From Deltaproteobacteria bacterium (GTDB lineage Bacteria; Desulfobacterota; Desulfuromonadia; Desulfuromonadales; Geopsychrobacteraceae): a DNA stretch of 64,000 bases. Both the position numbers and the translations under genes were made by a program. The stretch spans positions 62,001 through 126,000 of the forward strand of contig JAJRQI010000061.1 of the NCBI GenBank assembly GCA_024280335.1, read 5' to 3'. Below are positions 6,925-35,361 of this stretch, one piece after another (position 1 is the stretch's first letter; each line of letters opens with the position of its first letter). Under the pieces are notes generated by a model. It was not told the DNA's origin and ran no database searches. It saw only the letters and a program-made list of their open reading frames with translations.

Positions 6925-7767
6925 TCAAACCTTATGTGCCCCCTGGGTTTGTCGCATCGCTCGTTTGACCCGTGCGGTAAGCCGTATCGGGTTGATCGGT
7001 TTGGCGATGAAATCAAAAAAACCCATTTCAAGCAGCCGTGACTCTTCTTCGGCGGTAGCTTTGGCTGAGAGGGCAATCACCGGAATATCAGCTACCCCGC
7101 GAGTCCCTTGCAGCGCGCGGAACATTTCCTGCCCATCCATCCGCGGCATGATTACATCGGTAATGATCAGGTGCGGGTGGATCTGAATTGCCATTTTTAA
7201 TCCTTCGGCACCATTGTTGGCCTTGTAGACAGTGAAACCTTCTTTTTTCAGTGCTGCTTCGGCTGCAGAAAGGACGATCTCCTGATCGTCAACCATCAGG
7301 ATAATCCAGGAACGATCAGCGGCGTCCGTTTCGATTTCTTTCAGGTAGTGTTTTTTGATTGCTGCTTTGATCTCTTCGGGAGTCGTGACACAGGGAGTGA
7401 TGCGCCGGTCGGTTTTGAATGAAAGATCGCTCTGCAGGTCCATGTCAAGGGGATTGCACATGGCCAGGTGCAGGATTTTACCGTCGATTTTAAGCGGGAA
7501 TATCAGGTTTGTCAGGGCGGTTTCTGCATCGATCAGGTCGAGCACTTCCTGAGGAAAACGATAGCGGGCGATCCCTTTAACATAGGGAACATTGAACTGT
7601 TTAGCCAGTGCTTTGGCAATATCTTCCTCCAGGATAATATCCATCGACTCAAGGATCTGTCCCAGCCGTTTGCCGCTGTTTTTTTGAACGGCCAGAGCTT
7701 TGTCGAGGGTTTCTGGTGTAATAATCCCGGTTTCCAGAAGAATCTCACCCATCCTTTTTCTAGCCAT
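6925..7767 (-). CDS. MshEN domain-receiver domain fusion protein
   Basis: A 280-residue cytoplasmic protein. Residues about 5-145 form an MshEN/GspE N-terminal domain (GEILLETGIITPETLDKAL, then GQILESMDIILEEDIAKALAKQFNVPYV), a fold that in MshE binds c-di-GMP. Residues about 153-275 are a CheY-like receiver with acidic MVDD, phospho-acceptor DVIMPRMDG, and AKPINPIRL containing the conserved Lys. There is no output DNA-binding domain and no kinase next door. It could link phosphorylation to a pilus or secretion ATPase or to c-di-GMP, which is inference. It faces argA convergently. Confidence 0.8.
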   Translation of the reverse strand: MARKRMGEILLETGIITPETLDKALAVQKNSGKRLGQILESMDIILEEDIAKALAKQFNVPYVKGIARYRFPQEVLDLIDAETALTNLIFPLKIDGKILHLAMCNPLDMDLQSDLSFKTDRRITPCVTTPEEIKAAIKKHYLKEIETDAADRSWIILMVDDQEIVLSAAEAALKKEGFTVYKANNGAEGLKMAIQIHPHLIITDVIMPRMDGQEMFRALQGTRGVADIPVIALSAKATAEEESRLLEMGFFDFIAKPINPIRLTARVKRAMRQTQGAHKV

Positions 7768-7966: not shown

Positions 7967-10900
7967 TTAGCCGGTGATTTCGGCAGTAGAGAAGATTTTA
8001 TCGAGACTTGCAAACTGTACGCCTTTTTGTTTCATGTGCTCCTCAATTGAAGTGAGGCGTTGTTTTATCTGGTTCTCAGCGCTACTGCGTAAAGCGGACT
8101 TACACGCGGTATTTTCATCCTTAGTCGCCTGCAGTATTTCCAGTGATACTGGTGCTAGTGCGCTCTCCTGTCGTTGTTTGAAGAAATCCTGTAATTGCTG
8201 TTGATACTCATCACCAAAATAGAAAACTTCAGGAACCAGGGCAGTAAAACTTCTGATCGGGATTACATCCTTGCCGATGGCCCGGTAGGCATCAAGGATT
8301 TCCGGCTCCATATCCTGGTAGTTCTGAACCGGCATATACATCCGTTGCAGGTATTGCAGAACCTTTTCGGTTTTTTTGCGATGACCGCCGATAATCACTG
8401 AGGCGCCGATCTCTCCTTTTCTGGCCCCTTTTATCCAGGGGGCACCGGTGATGCCGAAGTCATTTTGGACCGGCAGGTTGAGCAGGGCGGAGAGGGTGTT
8501 GATCGCCAGCGCAAACCCGGCAGAGGGGCCGCCGACGTTGTAGGATGCGGAAAGCAGCTGATGGTGCAATGAATAGCCATCCAGATATTCGCCAAGCAGA
8601 CGAGAGATGTTGAGCTGGGGTTGTAACGACTGCAGATAACTTTCAACCAGGGTCATCGCTTCACGGGAACTTTGATGGGTCATCTGGACGGCTAGGTCCA
8701 GTTCGGCGCCCGCGGCAGAACTGGAAGAAACCGCGCCGGTGACGACAATCTTTTCCGGGTACATCCGGTAGATCAGGGTCGAGGCGATCGGCAGCAGCAC
8801 ACCGCTGACATCATTGGCGCCGACGCCGACGACAAAGCCGACCTGAGGTTCCTCGGACAGTTCGGTTTCCAGAAATTCGTCCAGCTGCTGCTTCCCTTTT
8901 CGCAACGGGCTGCCGGCCAACTGCTGCCCGGCGTTCTGCAGATGCCAGTGGGTTGTCGGGAAGTCGGCATCCGATTTGATCTTCGACAGCCGCGCGATCA
9001 CTTCGTCCAGTCGGTTGAGCAGGGCATCTTCACCTTGCCGGGCCTGTTGGGTCAGCGCGGTCTCGGGCATAATCCCTTCGAGCAGACCGAGCAGAATTTT
9101 ATAGTTGAAGCGGACAAAGCGGGTCTTTTCCTCATGGTCGTCCGCAGCAATTCTCAGCAGTTTCTGGATGACTTCAAGTTCGGTCGTGCGCAGCGAGCGC
9201 ACCTTTTCAGCATAGGCGGTGTAATCGGCCGGAGTTTCACAGAGTGAATTAGCCTGTTTGGTGATCTCCTCAACCGACAACCCTTCCGCCAGGGGGATTC
9301 CCGCCATCTCTTTAGCGATGATGCGTGAACAGTCATCCTCCCGCAGGTGTCCGGTGACGTTGAGGACTTTCAGCCGTTTAGAGCGGATCAGTGCCGGATC
9401 GATAATGTCCAGTCGATTGGTGGTCAGCACGGTGAAGACCCGATAGAGCGGGGTTTCGCCGTCGATGATCGAAAGGAACTTGTTGGTGATCTTGTCGTAG
9501 GGGCTTCCCCCTTGCGCTGAGCGGCGCGGGGCGATCGCATCCCCTTCGTCGAAAAAGACCATCGCCGGAGAAATCATTTTCGCAATATCGTAGATTCGTT
9601 CCAGATTGGCCACCATCCCTTCCAGCGGGCTGTTGGCATCGGTCAGGTCGGAGAGGTTGGCGGCGATATCCTGCACGTCATGATTATCGCCGAGCCAGGA
9701 GCGGACCAAATAGGTTTTTCCCGAGCCGGGCGGGCCGGTCAGCACCACACCTTTTTCTTCGTTGATGTTGTAGAACAGGGCATTGTTGGCCATCTCGGAA
9801 AATTCATTTTTGATATTTCCGATGTAGTCTTTCCAGGCGACCCCGCGGTCCAGTTCGCCGACCACTTTCTTGTAGATTGAGCCGTGGACGTTGCGCGCCA
9901 CCGCCTTCAGGGCATCTCGGACCAGCAGTTGATCATCCAGATATTCGGGGACGAAATGACCTTTAATGCTGATCAGCGATGCGAGCAGGCGGCGCACATA
10001 GGCCGGGGTGATCTTCAGGCTGCGTTGATGAAAAATCGGGTAGAGTTTATCGATGGCATGATCAAGCTCTTCCTCCGACAGATGCGGCCGGCGGCTGTCT
10101 GCAGGGTTCTTGGGTTGATTCCTGCGCCTTAATTCCAGGCAGACAACCTCGCGTAGATTCGCCGGATCCTCCCAGATGTCGTTGATGTCGATGATCAGGC
10201 CACGTTCCACAAAGCGCCTATAGATCGCCGGGTCGAACTGTTCAGGCTGGTCGGTTGTGGCGATCAGGATGCAATCACGGCGGCCGTGGGCGATCTCATC
10301 CAGGATGATGTTGCTGGCATCGATCAGGGTGGTCTGCTGTGATTTGACCGAGCTGCGCTCATCGGGGCGACCGAAGGCAGAGTGGGCCTCTTCCATGTGG
10401 CGCAGGCATAATTGGGCTGGATTGCCCATCGCTTTGCGCAGATAATTCCCCGGCTCGCCGGCAAAAGCGGTCTGGTAATCGTTGGGTGTGATCATCGCGT
10501 AGTCGATCCGTACCCCCTCTTCATCCAGCGTCGAGAGTGCCTGGCTGATCCGGTTGCGAAAAAGATAACGGATCAAGGGGATTCGCGAAAAGAGGCGGAG
10601 TCTGGTTCTTTTGCGCCGTCTTTCAATTCGGACCGCCAATTCCGGATCGACCTGAGTCAGACTGCGCCACAGCGGTTGATTCGCCAGTACAGCGGCTTTT
10701 TTGGCGTTGAGATCGACGACCGGTTTGACCACTGAGGAAAAGAGGGCCTCTTCTATCGCTTGCTTGATCGTCGCGCTTTTGCCGCTGCCTGAGTTGCCGA
10801 TGACCAGAATCAGCGGTGCGCGCGGAGTCTCAGGATCGTCGCTGTACTCTTTGAGGATAAAGGTGTGATAAATTTTGTCGAACATCTGGTAGATCGATTT

Positions 10901-11284
10901 GGGGACGAAGGTGTCGACCGTTTCTTTTTCTAACAGATAGGTCAGGTACTGATGATCCTGCGGATCCAGTTCCTGAGCCAGAATCCGGTTCCAGGCGGCG
11001 GTGGCGTCTTGCGAGCCGGCGGCCTCGAAGCGTTGGTGCCAGTCGTTGAGCAGGCTTGGGTTCTGCAGTAGGGTGAATTTACGTTCTGCTGGCTTGATGA
11101 AGTTTTGCACCCAGAGGAAAAGCCGCTTCAGAACAGATCGATGCGGGTCGTACTGATGTAGACGCCGCAAGACAAACCGCCGCGTTTCATTGCTCCAGCC
11201 CGCTACCAGATTTTCGATCTGCTGGATGCGTGTTTCGGAGAGGCTGACGTGAATCGGTGCTCTGGTTTTACGGGTTTGCGGCAT
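7967..11284 (-). CDS. Double-AAA, LonB-like protease partner of an SPFH protein
   Basis: A 1105-residue protein with two nucleotide-binding modules and a Lon-type peptidase domain. Walker A1 is GNSGSGKS (163-170) with sensor-like ILIATTDQPEQFDPA; Walker A2 is GPPGSGKT (517-524) with Walker B VFFDEGDAIAPRRS and VLTTNRLDIIDPALIRS. The C-terminal domain has GGPSAG with the nucleophile Ser921 and GGHRKK, where Lys971 takes the place expected in LonB-type enzymes. No membrane helix is evident. Its start overlaps the upstream SPFH gene by 17 bp, so the two are coupled. The likely role is ATP-driven proteolysis recruited to a membrane scaffold; substrates are unknown. It is not housekeeping Lon, which has one AAA module. 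Confidence 0.8.
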   Translation of the reverse strand: MPQTRKTRAPIHVSLSETRIQQIENLVAGWSNETRRFVLRRLHQYDPHRSVLKRLFLWVQNFIKPAERKFTLLQNPSLLNDWHQRFEAAGSQDATAAWNRILAQELDPQDHQYLTYLLEKETVDTFVPKSIYQMFDKIYHTFILKEYSDDPETPRAPLILVIGNSGSGKSATIKQAIEEALFSSVVKPVVDLNAKKAAVLANQPLWRSLTQVDPELAVRIERRRKRTRLRLFSRIPLIRYLFRNRISQALSTLDEEGVRIDYAMITPNDYQTAFAGEPGNYLRKAMGNPAQLCLRHMEEAHSAFGRPDERSSVKSQQTTLIDASNIILDEIAHGRRDCILIATTDQPEQFDPAIYRRFVERGLIIDINDIWEDPANLREVVCLELRRRNQPKNPADSRRPHLSEEELDHAIDKLYPIFHQRSLKITPAYVRRLLASLISIKGHFVPEYLDDQLLVRDALKAVARNVHGSIYKKVVGELDRGVAWKDYIGNIKNEFSEMANNALFYNINEEKGVVLTGPPGSGKTYLVRSWLGDNHDVQDIAANLSDLTDANSPLEGMVANLERIYDIAKMISPAMVFFDEGDAIAPRRSAQGGSPYDKITNKFLSIIDGETPLYRVFTVLTTNRLDIIDPALIRSKRLKVLNVTGHLREDDCSRIIAKEMAGIPLAEGLSVEEITKQANSLCETPADYTAYAEKVRSLRTTELEVIQKLLRIAADDHEEKTRFVRFNYKILLGLLEGIMPETALTQQARQGEDALLNRLDEVIARLSKIKSDADFPTTHWHLQNAGQQLAGSPLRKGKQQLDEFLETELSEEPQVGFVVGVGANDVSGVLLPIASTLIYRMYPEKIVVTGAVSSSSAAGAELDLAVQMTHQSSREAMTLVESYLQSLQPQLNISRLLGEYLDGYSLHHQLLSASYNVGGPSAGFALAINTLSALLNLPVQNDFGITGAPWIKGARKGEIGASVIIGGHRKKTEKVLQYLQRMYMPVQNYQDMEPEILDAYRAIGKDVIPIRSFTALVPEVFYFGDEYQQQLQDFFKQRQESALAPVSLEILQATKDENTACKSALRSSAENQIKQRLTSIEEHMKQKGVQFASLDKIFSTAEITG

Positions 11285-12221
11285 CGTTCTCTACCGGTGG
11301 CAATTCAGCGGGCAGCGGCGCAGGCAGAGTGACCGGTATCGCTGAGTTGGTATTGTTTAAGACAAAGGTATTTTGTCCCTGTTGATTCTTCTGGTATGCC
11401 GCCGCCCATTTCTGTTGATTGAGAAAGTTGAACAGGTGGGGCGTGTTGGCACCGCTTACCTTCAGCGCGCGGCTCATCTGCTGAATCGAATCACTGTAGG
11501 CCGCATAAAGTTTTTTCGTTCTGCTGGCCTCAAGGTCAGCAGCGTAGTTTTCCGCCTCGGCAATCAGTTCGCGGCGTTTCTTCTCTTCACTGGCCTCGGC
11601 CAGTTTTTCACCGTAGCGGGTATCGCGCAGCACAAATGAGATCACTTCGATGCCGTACTTCTGTTCCAGCGTCGGTCCGCCCCGGTTGATCGGCTGATCC
11701 TTCAAGGTTCGGTAGATCTGCTCCTTGATCCGGACCCGATCAGAGATCAGTTGGTTGATCGATTCGCTCTGCATGACATCTTTGACAATTCCGTCAAAAT
11801 CAGTTTGCAACAGCGTTTGCGGTGAGCGATTCTCAATCCCCCAACGTTCCAGGTCCTGAATTCTGAAAGTCAGCATGGCACTGGTCCAGAGGGCGACATT
11901 CCCCTTAGACATAATTCGTTGCGGCTCGATGCTGTTGCCCAGATGCAGCTCCTGATTCATCAATGGAACCTCTAATTCGAGACGGGTGAAGATCGGCAGG
12001 CGCAGGTGCCAGCCGATTTCGGTGATCGCCAGTCGTTCGCCCGAGAGCGTTTCCAGGATGATGGCGTAATTATAGCGGACCTTGTAGATGGTTTTGGTCG
12101 CATAGACCAATGCGATGCTGCCGTAACAGAGAACAAAAATCAGCAGGATGACAAAGATCCGCTTAAACAGGTTTTTCAGTCGCGCTCGATGAAGCAGGCT
12201 GGAGTGGACTTCCTGGGTCAC
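11268..12221 (-). CDS. SPFH/prohibitin-domain membrane scaffold protein
   Basis: The chosen start is GTG 12221, which has AGGAGG six bases upstream; an in-frame ATG at 12320 lacks one. The 317-residue product has one N-terminal membrane helix (RIFVILLIFVLCYGSIALVY), then an SPFH domain, a helical AEASEEKKRRELIAEAENYAADLEASR segment typical of HflC/prohibitin oligomers, and a Pro-rich tail (PVTLPAPLPAELPP). Such proteins form large membrane rings. Because it is translationally coupled to a LonB-like protease, it probably tethers or regulates it, as HflKC does for FtsH. Confidence 0.8.
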   Translation of the reverse strand: MTQEVHSSLLHRARLKNLFKRIFVILLIFVLCYGSIALVYATKTIYKVRYNYAIILETLSGERLAITEIGWHLRLPIFTRLELEVPLMNQELHLGNSIEPQRIMSKGNVALWTSAMLTFRIQDLERWGIENRSPQTLLQTDFDGIVKDVMQSESINQLISDRVRIKEQIYRTLKDQPINRGGPTLEQKYGIEVISFVLRDTRYGEKLAEASEEKKRRELIAEAENYAADLEASRTKKLYAAYSDSIQQMSRALKVSGANTPHLFNFLNQQKWAAAYQKNQQGQNTFVLNNTNSAIPVTLPAPLPAELPPVENDAANP

Positions 12222-12426
12222 GTCGGGCCTCCTGGGGGACGGTGCAGCGATCTGTAGAAGTGAGTTAACTTGTCGGAACTTTAATGATAGCAGGATTTTA
12301 GCTGAAATCCAGAGCCGCACGGAGGGGTGTTTTCGCGGTCGACGGTTGCGTCACCGGTCGTTTCGAATAACATGATATGGTTCCCCCTTGATTCTCCATT
12401 TAAACAATTCAGAGATGGGAGGCAGT

Positions 12427-13179
12427 ATGGCGGTCATTAGAGAGCAAATTGATACAGCGGTTAAACTGATAAGATCTGCCGAAACTTGCGCCGCTTTTTC
12501 CGGGGCCGGCATCTCAACGGAATCTGGGTTGGCTGATTTTCGCAGTCCAGGAGGCTTATGGGATCGTTACCGTATCGTCACCCATCCTGAATTTCTGCGC
12601 AGCAAGGAGGCGCGGCTGGAATACTGGCGGATGCGTCGGGAGCTGATCCCGGCGATTCTCAACGCGCGACCCAATCGCGCCCATGAGGTTCTGGCCGAGC
12701 TGGAGCAGTCCGGGAAGTTGCACGGGGTGATAACCCAGAATATCGACGGTCTGCATCAGGCTGCCGGCAGCAAAAATGTCATGGAGCTGCATGGTACCAA
12801 TCGCACCGCCTCCTGCCTGAGCTGCGGGAAACAGTGGCCTATCGAGGATATTCAACAACTGTTGGAAACCGGAGACCTTGATCCGCACTGCGACTTGTGC
12901 GATGGCTTGATCAACCCGGATACGGTCTCTTTTGGCCAGAGTATGCCGGAAGATGTCATGAATGCTGCTTTTCAGGCTGCGCAGAATTGTGACCTGTTGC
13001 TGATGATCGGTTCTTCACTGGAGGTGCAACCGGCAGCGTCGGTGCCGATTGCGGCCTATCAGAATGGGGCAAAACTGATTTTTATCAACAAAACAGAAAC
13101 TGCCAGCGACGATCTGGCAGAATTGCTGGTACGCGGCAGCGCCGGGGACTTTATGGCGGCAGTAATGGAAGAGTTCTAG
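12427..13179 (+). CDS. Sir2-family NAD-dependent protein deacylase
   Basis: A 250-residue sirtuin starting at ATG 12427 behind GGGAGG. It carries the NAD-binding signature GAGISTESGLADFRSPGG, the catalytic QNIDGLHQAAG with the active-site His in ELHGT, two CxxC zinc pairs (CLSC and CDLC), and the cofactor-binding IGSSLEVQPAA and FINKTET. It removes acyl groups from lysine, using NAD. The MRRE segment after the cofactor loop lacks the Tyr-x-x-Arg pair that marks SIRT5-like desuccinylases clearly, so deacetylase activity is more likely. It stands alone, divergent from the SPFH gene. Confidence 0.93.
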   Translation: MAVIREQIDTAVKLIRSAETCAAFSGAGISTESGLADFRSPGGLWDRYRIVTHPEFLRSKEARLEYWRMRRELIPAILNARPNRAHEVLAELEQSGKLHGVITQNIDGLHQAAGSKNVMELHGTNRTASCLSCGKQWPIEDIQQLLETGDLDPHCDLCDGLINPDTVSFGQSMPEDVMNAAFQAAQNCDLLLMIGSSLEVQPAASVPIAAYQNGAKLIFINKTETASDDLAELLVRGSAGDFMAAVMEEF

Positions 13180-13241: not shown

Positions 13242-15413
13242 TCAGCCCAGGCTGATAACTTCGTCTTTTTCCTGCTTCTGGATGGAGGTCCAGGCGATAT
13301 CCCCCTGGTCTGACGCGCTACTCATCGCTTCCGGAATATCATTGCTGGAGGCGCCCTGTTTGAGCTGGAAGCGCTGCAACATCTGCTGTAACTGCAGCGC
13401 CTGCCCGGAAAGCTCTTCGCTGGTGGCGGCACTTTCTTCAGCGCTGGCAGTGTTCTGCTGAATCACCTGATCAATCTGTTGCAGGCCCAGATTGACCTGT
13501 GAGATACCGCTGGCCTGTTCTTTACTGGCGGCCGCAATCTCGCTGAGCAGATCATCGACTTTGGTGATCGCGCCGACAATTTCCGTCAGTGATGCAGAGG
13601 TTTTTTCTGCAATCCGGGTACCGTTGGCCGCCTTTTCTACCGAGCCTTCGATCAGTTCAGCCGTTTCGCTGGCGGCCTTGGAACTGCGCGCCGCCAGATT
13701 ACGCACCTCTTCGGCAACCACCGCAAACCCTTTACCGTGCTGTCCGGCGCGGGCTGCCTCGACGGCGGCATTCAGGGCCAGCAGGTTGGTCTGGAAGGCG
13801 ATTTCATCGATGACTTTGATGATTTTACTGATGTTCTGGCTGGAGTTGTTGATTTCATCCATCGCCTCGACCATCGCGCCCATCTGCTGACTTCCGGCTA
13901 CCGCTGCTTGACTGGCCTTGGTGGCCAGCTGATTGGCCTGGTTTGCGTTTTCGGCACTCTGGTTGGTCTGCGCGCCGATCTCGTTCATCGAACTGCTGAT
14001 CTGTTCCAGTGACGCAGCTGACCGGGTGGCACCCTCAGAGAGTGACTGGCTGGCCTCTGAGACCTGGCTGCTGCCGGTATTGATCTGTTCCCCCGCGGCC
14101 AGGATCTGGCCGATGATCTCATTCAGATCGGTGCCCAGTTGCCGCAGCGCACTGCGCAGCACATCCTGCTCATCGCGCGGGTTTGCGTCAAAGGTCAGGT
14201 CGCCTTGCGCCAGTTGTTGCAGCGGTTGGACGATCTCCTGCTGCAAACTGTCGGCAAAACGGTCCATCGCCCCTGCCATGCGGCCGATCTCATCATTCCG
14301 GTCGAGGTGCAGCCGCCGTTCGATATGACCTCGTTCCAGTTCTTCGAGCATATTGACGGTTTGCGACAGCGGCCCGGTGATACTCCTGGTCAGGAAAAAG
14401 CCGAGCAGCAGGGCGGTACCGATACCGGCGGCGATGATCAGCCCGAGAACCGTTGCAACCTGATCGGCTGCCTCGGCGGCCTGCTCGGTGTTGCTGTTCA
14501 TGGTCTGTCGTGCTGTTGCGACGATCTTCTGCAGATCCTGCTGGGCTTGGTCCAGCACCGGGGCACTGACCTGCAGGGCGTGGTTTTGCATCTGCCGGTG
14601 TACATCCAGGGCCGCGGCGATCGGGTCGAGGATATGTTGAATCGATTCTTTGACACCTAATACACTCGGCTTGATTTCGAGAGAGTAGGTTTCCTGGGCC
14701 AATTCCGGTTCTTCAATTTCAAAGTAATCGAAGATTGAAACCATCGACTCACCGACGGCTTCGAGTTGCTTCAGCAGCATTTTTTTCGCTTTTACGATGT
14801 GCTCGCTCTGACTCTCCAGCTTTTTTGCCCATTGGCCGATCTCGGTATTTAACGGGTCTTTTTCCACCGAGATTTCAACCGCATCCATGATGTTTTCACT
14901 CAGCTGGATCGCCCAGTTCTGGTAAGAAGAGAGCATCTGCTGGGCTTGCAGTGCCAGTTCCGCCGGGTTGTCGATACGGGCTGCATCGTACTGCTTCGAG
15001 AGGATCAGAAACTCCTGCAATTGCGGCAGCCAGCTGTTCCAGTTGTTGAGAAAGGTTTGCCAGAGGAGTCGTTCTTCGCCCTGCCGCAGCAGCGAATCGA
15101 CAATCGCAATCGCTCGTTCTGCATCAGTGCGGGCTGCTTCGATAAGCTGATACTCATTCTGCCGCTGTTGTAGTGACAGGGTTCCGTCGAGCAGGGTGCG
15201 TTCACTGCTTTTCATCGCCTCAAGCGATTTGTTGAGTGTCAGAATCGCTTCCATGGCAGGGACATCATGCTGGCTGATGGTCGCCAGGTTCTCCTTTAAG
15301 CGTGACGTTCCCCACCAGCCGGTCAGGCCGACCAGCAGGCAGATCAGAGCAACAAAGGAGAAGGAGCCCAACAGCTTTTTTTGCAGACTGACGGAACTGA
15401 AGAAACTGCTCAT
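13242..15413 (-). CDS. Methyl-accepting chemotaxis protein, downstream of a binding-protein gene
   Basis: A 723-residue transmembrane chemoreceptor. TM1 is at about 14-34, followed by a ~290-residue helical periplasmic domain resembling an extended four-helix bundle, TM2 near 325-345 ([20 protein letters not shown]), a HAMP domain ([18 protein letters not shown]), and a cytoplasmic signalling domain with the hairpin tip [20 protein letters not shown]. It follows a phosphate-type binding protein gene by 69 bp on the same strand, so the receptor may read the ligand-bound binding protein. No CheR-tethering NWETF pentapeptide is present at the C-terminus. Confidence 0.93.
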
Positions 15414-33412: not shown

Positions 33413-34336
33413 TTATTTTGCCGATTTCAGATATTTGAAATAATCGGAATCGGTTGAAATAACCAGTCGGCCATTCTTGTTAATGGTTTTTTTGTACGAT
33501 GCGAGGGTGCGTAAAAAGGCGTAGAAGTCCTTGTCCTGATTGTAGGCGTTGGCATAAATCGATGCGGCTTCGGCATCGGCGGCGCCCCGGATTTCCAGCG
33601 CCTTGCGGTAGGCTTCAGAGCTGATCTCCTTCAGCTCGCGCTGCATTTTACCGAGGGTCTCGGCTTTTTCCCCTTCACCCTCGGAACGGTACTGGGCGGC
33701 GACTTTTTTCCGTTCGTTGATCATCCGCTCGTAAACCCGGGTACGCACCTGCTCGACGTAGTTGATCCGCTTGATCTGTACATCGAGCAGCTCGATGCCG
33801 TATTCTGGAGTGCTGGACTGAGCTTCTTTCAGAATCCCGGCCATGATCTCCTCGCGGCCGACCAGCTGATCCTTGGGGATTGCCACGCCATCGACCTCAA
33901 AGCGCTCATCCGGCTGGCCGATATAATCGCTGCCGCGTACCAGCTCTACCAGCAGGCGGTTGGAGACGGCATCGCGGACCACCGAATCGATAATATCATC
34001 GAGCCGGCCCATTGCGCCCCGTTCGGTGGCAACACTGGTGTAAAACAGCAGCGGGTCGGAAATCCGCCAGCGGGCGGTGGTATCGATCCAGATAAACTTT
34101 TTATCCTTGGTCGGGATCTGGTTCGGGTCGCCATCCCATTTAAGGATCCGTTTTTCAAAACGGTTAACATTTTGCACAAAGGGCAGCTTGAAATGCAATC
34201 CTCGGTTGACCACATCGCCGACCGGCTTGCCGAACTGGGTGACAATCGCCTGCTCGGCTTCGTTGACAACGTAGAGGCCGCCACGGGCGATAAGAAAGGT
34301 GACGAAAATCAGGGCAATAATAATCGGTGCTTTCAT
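33413..34336 (-). CDS. hflC: HflC, SPFH modulator of FtsH
   Basis: A 307-residue inner-membrane SPFH protein. A single N-terminal helix (IIIALIFVTFLIARGGLYVV) precedes the SPFH domain with EQAIVTQFGKPVGD, WRISDPLLFY and the helical GEGEKAETLGKMQRELKEISSEAYRKALEIRGAADAEAA-type region (positions about 190-240). HflC pairs with HflK as a large ring around FtsH. It overlaps hflK by four bases. Confidence 0.95.
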   Translation of the reverse strand: MKAPIIIALIFVTFLIARGGLYVVNEAEQAIVTQFGKPVGDVVNRGLHFKLPFVQNVNRFEKRILKWDGDPNQIPTKDKKFIWIDTTARWRISDPLLFYTSVATERGAMGRLDDIIDSVVRDAVSNRLLVELVRGSDYIGQPDERFEVDGVAIPKDQLVGREEIMAGILKEAQSSTPEYGIELLDVQIKRINYVEQVRTRVYERMINERKKVAAQYRSEGEGEKAETLGKMQRELKEISSEAYRKALEIRGAADAEAASIYANAYNQDKDFYAFLRTLASYKKTINKNGRLVISTDSDYFKYLKSAK

Positions 34337-35361
34337 TTGGCCCCCCCTTCCAGTGACTTGCGTAACGGCAGCAGCGGCAAGACGCCGATGTTTTTGTTAT
34401 CCATAATGTAGGTTTCTTCCAGGCGAGGCAGCACCTCTTCCAAGGTTTCCAGGTGGATACGCCGACGGGTGACCTCCGGAGCTTTTTTGTATTCCGTCAA
34501 CAACGCTAGAAAGCGGTTGGTTTCACCACGGGCCTTGTTGATCCGTTCCACGGCGTAACCTTCGGCTTCCTGCAGGGCACGTTTTGCCTCACCGCGAGCA
34601 CGTGGAACTTCGCGATTGAACTGTTCACGAGCCTGGAAAATCAAACTTTCTTTCTGCTGTTCCGCTTCGTTAACCTCGTTGAAGGCGTCTTTAACCGGGT
34701 CGGGCGGAGTCACGTCCTGAAATTTGACGGTGACGATCCGCACACCGATGTCATACTGGTTGAGGGTTTTCTGCAGGTTCAGCTCAATCTCGCTGGCCAG
34801 GGTCGCTCGCGCGGTAGTCAACACCTGGGTGACGTCGGCGTTGCCGATCGCCCTGCGGACCATCGCTTCGGCAATATCACGGATGGCCCCGACCGGGTCC
34901 TTGATATTGAAAATATACTTGAAAGGGTCGGCAACCTGGAACTGAACGATCCACTCGACATCGCTGACGTTCAGGTCACCGGTCAGGGTCAGCGATTCCT
35001 CTTCCAGGCCGCGCTTGCTGAAGGTGGTGCGAATGCCCGGTATAACTGTTCGATAGCCGAACTCCTCCTTAAGCACTCGACCGGTCGGCACCAGATAGAC
35101 CTGCTCGACACCGAAGGGGATTTTGAAATTCAGTCCCGGGTCTGCGAAGCTGACAAATTTCCCGAAGCGCAGTACCACTCCGGTTTCTTCAGTGTCAACT
35201 TCATAGAAGCTGCTGTAGCCGCCGATGACCAGCAGCAGAATCAGGATGACCACCGGGATAAGGCCTTTTTGCAGATTAAACTTGTTCTTCAGATGGTCGC
35301 GGATTTCGACAATCTTTTTTTCCAATTCGTCCCCGGAAGGACCACTTTGCCAATCTTGCAT
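34333..35361 (-). CDS. hflK: HflK, SPFH modulator of FtsH
   Basis: A 342-residue partner of HflC. An N-terminal cytoplasmic stretch leads to a membrane helix (GLIPVVILILLLVIGGYSSF), then VDTEETGVVLRFGKFV, WIVQFQVADPFKYIFNI and VKFQDVTPPDPVKDAFNEVNEAEQQ, all typical for HflK. The Gly-rich N-terminal region of enterobacterial HflK is missing, as in many relatives. It is the first gene of the hflKC operon. Confidence 0.95.
   Translation of the reverse strand: MQDWQSGPSGDELEKKIVEIRDHLKNKFNLQKGLIPVVILILLLVIGGYSSFYEVDTEETGVVLRFGKFVSFADPGLNFKIPFGVEQVYLVPTGRVLKEEFGYRTVIPGIRTTFSKRGLEEESLTLTGDLNVSDVEWIVQFQVADPFKYIFNIKDPVGAIRDIAEAMVRRAIGNADVTQVLTTARATLASEIELNLQKTLNQYDIGVRIVTVKFQDVTPPDPVKDAFNEVNEAEQQKESLIFQAREQFNREVPRARGEAKRALQEAEGYAVERINKARGETNRFLALLTEYKKAPEVTRRRIHLETLEEVLPRLEETYIMDNKNIGVLPLLPLRKSLEGGAK

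Follow-up and report, generated by a model that had tools for sequence, protein, structure and literature searches.

A conserved gene pair for an SPFH membrane protein and a Cdc48/p97-type double-AAA protein with a Lon peptidase domain: a candidate membrane proteolysis module

The window analysed here, a 64,000-nucleotide stretch on contig 69 of a 3.59 Mb, 99.5% complete deltaproteobacterial genome, contains a gene for an SPFH membrane protein that runs into a gene for a large protein with ATPase and Lon-type peptidase domains (Table 1). Do the two genes encode a single system and, if so, which class of protease would it contain and how would it relate to the membrane? A sequence-only reading of the locus had suggested that an SPFH ring supplies the membrane anchor and the gating for a soluble, LonB-like double-ring enzyme.

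Table 1 Features of the SPFH-protease locus (residue numbers refer to the respective protein).
Feature	Position in window	Strand	Remarks
SPFH (Band_7) gene	11268..12221	-	317 aa when read from GTG; a single transmembrane helix at the N-terminus, followed by SPFH domain, coiled coil and conserved tail
Ribosome-binding site AGGAGG of SPFH gene	12228..12233	-	
Predicted transmembrane helix, SPFH residues 22-40 from GTG	12102..12158	-	hydropathy 2.73
Band_7/SPFH domain	11529..12080	-	Pfam PF01145, 55.9 bits vs cut-off 23.6
Double-AAA Lon-peptidase gene, 1105 aa	7967..11284	-	17 bp overlap with the end of the SPFH gene
N-terminal helical domain, residues 1-145	10850..11284	-	partly amphipathic helix at 49-66; not p97 N-domain by Pfam
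AAA domain 1 (AAA1), residues 146-390	10115..10849	-	Walker A GNSGSGKS, EE Walker B
Walker A of AAA1, residues 163-170	10775..10798	-	G163, S165, G166, S167, G168, K169 invariant
AAA1 insert, 45 residues, 212-256	10517..10651	-	between Walker A and pore loop
AAA domain 2 (AAA2), residues about 482-690	9215..9841	-	classical AAA, Cdc48/p97 type
Walker A of AAA2, GPPGSGKT, residues 517-524	9713..9736	-	
AAA2 second region of homology TVLTTNRLDIIDPALIRSKRLKV, arginine-finger candidates, residues 618-640	9365..9433	-	nearly invariant
Lon (S16) peptidase domain, residues 804-1020	8225..8875	-	
Predicted catalytic Ser921 in GGPSAG	8522..8524	-	invariant; aligns with GPSAG Ser of E. coli Lon
Predicted catalytic Lys971 in GGHRKK	8372..8374	-	invariant; aligns with Lys of A. 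fulgidus LonB

Both open reading frames and their overlap, between the SPFH stop at 11268 and the protease ATG at 11284, lie where the sequence-only reading had placed them, as do the GTG start, the AGGAGG and the single N-terminal helix of the SPFH gene, with which the N-termini of homologues agree. The longest SPFH frame extends to 12320; the start at GTG 12221 is supported by the homologues, which begin at or near it, and by the AGGAGG a few bases upstream. The product fits the Band 7 definition, a Band_7 domain following an N-terminal membrane segment, and scores below the NCBIfam cut-offs for both HflK (19.1 vs 159.4 bits) and HflC (14.6 vs 134.4 bits). Its AF2 model (pLDDT 62) gives a weak fold match to HflK/C and prohibitin. 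The C-terminal tail, FLNQQKWA-AY-KN-GQNTFVLN, is kept in homologues and appears to be exposed.

Judged by its sequence, the partner is a cytosolic-type protein with two Cdc48/p97-type AAA domains and a C-terminal Lon Ser-Lys peptidase domain. The Pfam AAA model matches it with 94.5 bits, the best stretch being residues 513-639, and the CDC48 subfamily model with E=1.8e-25 (89.4 bits, below the cut-off of 802.65); its best PDB matches are p97 chains, from 1.6e-36. In profile alignment, AAA2 pairs with an archaeal CDC48 at a probability of 99.3 and 31% identity over 199 columns, which span the second region of homology and the arginine-finger positions. This region, LTTNRLDIIDPALIRSKRLKV, is of the classical AAA/Cdc48 form with arginine fingers. 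Since E. coli Lon aligns to the large protein in the peptidase domain only, AAA2 cannot be recognised as an AAA+ domain of the Lon type. AAA1 contains a pore-loop-like element, AGEPGNYLRKA, which in our reading resembles the pore loop of p97 D1 (KLAGESESNLRKAF), and an RR pair at 356/357 as finger candidates. By profile, AAA1 itself is very divergent, and its identification as CDC48 D1 by profile comparison was rejected, the alignment being limited to the Walker A region. A fold search with the AF2 model of the protease (pLDDT 66) matched p97 across both AAA domains, p97 chains being the best match, with alignments of 620-770 columns that superpose poorly as a whole; owing to the low pLDDT of both models, interdomain geometry was left unused. 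The CDC48 N-domain is not among the Pfam matches listed for the protein. As a whole, AAA1 and AAA2 are predicted to constitute a double motor of the Cdc48/p97 type. The two Walker A sites noticed earlier are present and conserved; the description of the protein as double-AAA LonB-like has to be given up for its ATPase part, which is of the Cdc48/p97 type, its second ATPase being a classical AAA domain and not the AAA+ domain of Lon or LonB.

The peptidase domain conforms to the S16 definition, a Lon_C domain with a Ser-Lys dyad (Pfam Lon_C, residues 804-993, 26.3 bits vs a cut-off of 21.1). Its closest solved relative is A. fulgidus LonB (1z0b, E=6e-8). Alignments to this enzyme and to E. coli Lon both place Ser921 on the known catalytic Ser, and the former additionally pairs Lys971 with the Lys of LonB. 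In an alignment of 26 homologues, Ser921, Lys971, Thr946 and the His pair 907/908 are invariant, and these residues together with the GPSAG motif are unchanged down to about 50% overall identity. The dyad seen earlier is therefore intact. Its supposed LonB-like spacing did not hold: a 7-residue insert beside the active site, placed after the TG strand and before the GG-K helix, brings the gap between Ser and Lys to 49 residues, whereas LonA and LonB both have 42 (PMC9569914). Furthermore, an Asp precedes the catalytic Ser in LonB (PMC9569914), whereas here the residue is Pro, a LonA feature, within an invariant GGPSAG. The scores against the NCBIfam models of LonB (TIGR00764, 38.3 vs a cut-off of 516.6 bits) and endopeptidase La (TIGR00763, 44.3 vs 608 bits) are far from either family, and an N-terminal LON domain is not among the Pfam matches listed. 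By its defining features the predicted peptidase is neither LonA nor LonB; the context of its Ser is A-type and its overall sequence is nearest to LonB.

Conserved linkage had been set beforehand as the test of a joint module, and it was upheld. The SPFH gene lies directly upstream of the Lon-like gene, on the same strand, in 76 of 80 loci (some genomes being counted twice; 51 distinct pairs); the remaining four run into the end of a contig or of the stretch examined, which cuts them short. The two genes mostly overlap, by 1-71 bp, which would fit translational coupling. In a sample of 395 genomes across the phylum, profiles of the SPFH protein (matches at E <1e-150), of the full-length Lon-like protein (true matches >1700 bits, all others <95) and of the N-terminal/AAA1 region each match the same 12. 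The trees of the two proteins, built from the 51 pairs, have a distance correlation of r=0.94 (permuted maximum 0.17) and zero conflicting supported splits. On this comparison of genomes, the pairing of the two genes is obligatory and not a matter of chance.

The module is patchy among 60 relatives, and its closest named relatives belong to the Desulfuromonadales, for example Malonomonas rubra. When one genome per species was scanned, 41 loci came up, and every one whose title gives a lineage more precise than Proteobacteria is Desulfobacterota-type; the scan relied on short exact peptides, which distant relatives in other groups could escape. Beyond the pair, no neighbouring gene is conserved across the family, and a larger conserved cluster was rejected, as neighbours differ between lineages. 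There is no SPFH-Lon fusion gene among the homologous ORFs, the long frames being upstream extensions only. An origin from a phage or plasmid was likewise rejected, since the plasmids, phages and viral contigs searched gave no full-length relative, as was a defence system, for which PADLOC matched generic AAA only, and weakly. No conserved match to a heat-shock, sigma-54 or envelope-stress promoter was found upstream of the SPFH gene, and such promoters were discarded as candidates.

As the sequence-only reading had supposed, the protease is soluble in the sense that it has no transmembrane-like segment by hydropathy, its strongest stretches lying in the peptidase core. LonB is anchored by a transmembrane insert in its AAA+ module; the insert of the protease is basic instead. 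The membrane domain of LonB likewise sits within the AAA+ module (PMC9569914). The core of the AAA1 insert, residues 218-250, carries a net charge of +6 to +11 in 26/26 homologues around a hydrophobic centre (SR-P-I-RY-F), and its length of exactly 45 residues and its positive charge are kept while its sequence varies. The insert is a candidate for contact with lipid or nucleic acid. Near residues 49-66 lies a helix whose amphipathic character is seen in this lineage. We infer that the protease touches acidic lipids peripherally.

Ahead of its transmembrane helix, the SPFH protein has a basic tail about 20 residues long. K/R residues are richer on the N side of the helix in 46/51 homologues, and both flanks are basic, which makes the topology assignment weak. 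As it stands, the charge bias mildly favours an N-in orientation that puts the SPFH domain in the periplasm, where that of HflK/C also lies. In that orientation, direct contact with a cytosolic enzyme would be confined to the tail of about 20 residues or to shared substrates, which weakens the earlier idea that an SPFH ring gates the protease.

Considering (i) the linkage in 76/80 loci, the co-occurrence in the same 12/395 genomes, the congruent trees, the gene overlaps and the lack of any other family-wide neighbour, which support one functional unit, (ii) the invariant Walker, arginine-finger and Ser/Lys residues and the similarity to p97 and S16 proteins, which support an ATP-driven protease, and (iii) the invariably basic insert of a protease that has no transmembrane helix of its own, next to an SPFH protein with one helix, which supports a membrane partnership, we propose, with a probability of roughly 0.6, that the pair forms one functional unit in which an inner-membrane SPFH scaffold works with a dedicated ATP-dependent protease to remove membrane proteins. 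The protease would form a hexamer of three stacked tiers (AAA1, AAA2 and peptidase) and would dock on the inner leaflet with its N-terminal side and with the basic insert of AAA1. The SPFH oligomer would demarcate or hold a patch of membrane and confine substrates there, and both ATPase rings would pull the confined membrane proteins out and pass them to the Lon chamber for cleavage. Alongside HflKC-FtsH, such a unit would make a second SPFH-AAA protease system, with a p97-type motor and a Lon peptidase in place of the motor and metalloprotease of FtsH. A wider and tentative reading sees it as a bacterial, one-polypeptide counterpart of the p97-proteasome route, a Cdc48-type double ring permanently joined to a Lon chamber that, docked on the inner leaflet under a substrate-selecting SPFH cage, may extract and destroy membrane proteins.

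Several observations weigh against the proposed unit. The charge bias suggests a periplasmic SPFH domain with contact limited to a short tail, the AF2 models are weak, the predicted active site has the 7-residue insert beside it, and linkage and congruent trees are also expected from an operon whose products never meet. A common operon might serve to co-regulate the two genes, for instance in envelope stress, while their products act separately, the SPFH protein organising lipids and the protease degrading soluble proteins; a predicted periplasmic SPFH domain, with its small contact surface, would suit such a division. We consider it rather unlikely in view of the all-or-none co-occurrence across the phylum sample, the conserved gene overlap and the changing neighbours.

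The SPFH protein could also be a substrate or negative regulator, not the scaffold, of a peripheral or cytosolic quality-control enzyme. Its conserved, exposed-looking C-terminal tail would agree with this, and there is a precedent in the stomatin-specific protease PH1510, which according to PMC3795559 cleaves its stomatin partner, the operon pairing of SPFH genes with NfeD/protease genes being described in PMC2636767. PH1510, however, belongs to the ClpP-like membrane serine proteases and has no AAA rings, and two unfoldase rings would seem superfluous for clipping a tail, which makes this relationship an unlikely one. The insert beside the predicted active site, which shifts the Ser-Lys spacing, and the very divergent first ATPase raise the question of whether the large protein might be an unfoldase or chaperone with an inactive Lon domain; the invariance of both dyad residues, of Thr946 and the His pair, and of GPSAG in homologues down to about 50% overall identity makes that highly improbable.

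The proposed SPFH-protease unit shares with HflK/HflC-FtsH the pairing of SPFH membrane protein(s) with an AAA protease and the weak fold match of its SPFH model. It differs in having just one SPFH gene, which scores far below the cut-offs for HflK and HflC, and a double-AAA protease that lacks a transmembrane helix and carries a Ser-Lys Lon peptidase, whereas FtsH is a zinc protease. Archaeal LonB (MEROPS S16.005) is the closest solved peptidase relative and also has an insert in its AAA module; the large protein departs from it in its two AAA domains, the second a classical Cdc48 one, in the absence of a transmembrane helix, and in the residue before Ser and the dyad spacing given above. With Cdc48/p97 it has tandem AAA domains and the similarity of AAA2 in common; the fused C-terminal Lon peptidase, the very divergent AAA1 with its basic insert, and a list of Pfam matches that does not include the p97 N-domain set it apart. 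SPFH-NfeD pairs, including stomatin with a PH1510-type protease, likewise form a conserved operon, in some cases with a serine protease (PMC2636767, PMC3795559), yet there the partner is not homologous to the protease described here.

We found no description of the SPFH-protease pair or of a Cdc48-Lon fusion in the open-access literature, in keeping with the earlier suggestion of an undescribed module. For SPFH subfamilies, the available part of a 2009 survey describes operons with NfeD and an interaction with FtsH, and it mentions no Lon partner; the architecture table that a 2008 survey gives for prokaryotic Lon proteins (PMC2605481) has no double-AAA form, so that the Cdc48-Lon domain architecture is missing from it. 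SPFH-AAA protease systems as such are already known from HflKC-FtsH; what would be new among them is the Cdc48-Lon protease partner. If the proposed unit is real, it would be a second SPFH-protease pair unrelated to the first, which would point to SPFH cages as general partners of membrane proteolysis and would provide an independent case for testing what the SPFH cage does.

The genome contains three other SPFH genes, among them an hflKC-like pair in the window, where separate Band_7 matches at about 33674-35202 fit hflC/hflK, and six Lon_C genes. Besides the 1105-residue gene, the latter comprise three high-scoring genes (frames of 782, 571 and 809 aa), which lie outside the window on contigs C72, C20 and C29, and two weak matches. 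An AAA match on another contig fits FtsH by length and aligned region and is a candidate for that gene. As other Lon_C, FtsH-like and SPFH genes are present, the SPFH-protease pair would be an additional system and not a replacement, which bears out the earlier view of an extra system separate from true hflKC.

The next gene downstream, about 200 bp from the protease gene (6925-7767, - strand), encodes an N-terminal MshEN-type c-di-GMP-binding region (NCBIfam 64.3 vs a cut-off of 38) and a C-terminal response-regulator receiver domain; in several close relatives, the module is followed by a gene of about 280-310 aa from one similarity cluster. On the other side, the SPFH gene is adjoined by a divergent sirtuin (Sir2) gene (12388-13179, + strand), which scores 264.9 with the CobB model, below the cut-off of 320, and passes a general deacylase model. 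The gene beyond it (13242-15413, - strand) encodes a methyl-accepting chemotaxis protein, which has a HAMP domain and a sensor of the four-helix-bundle type.
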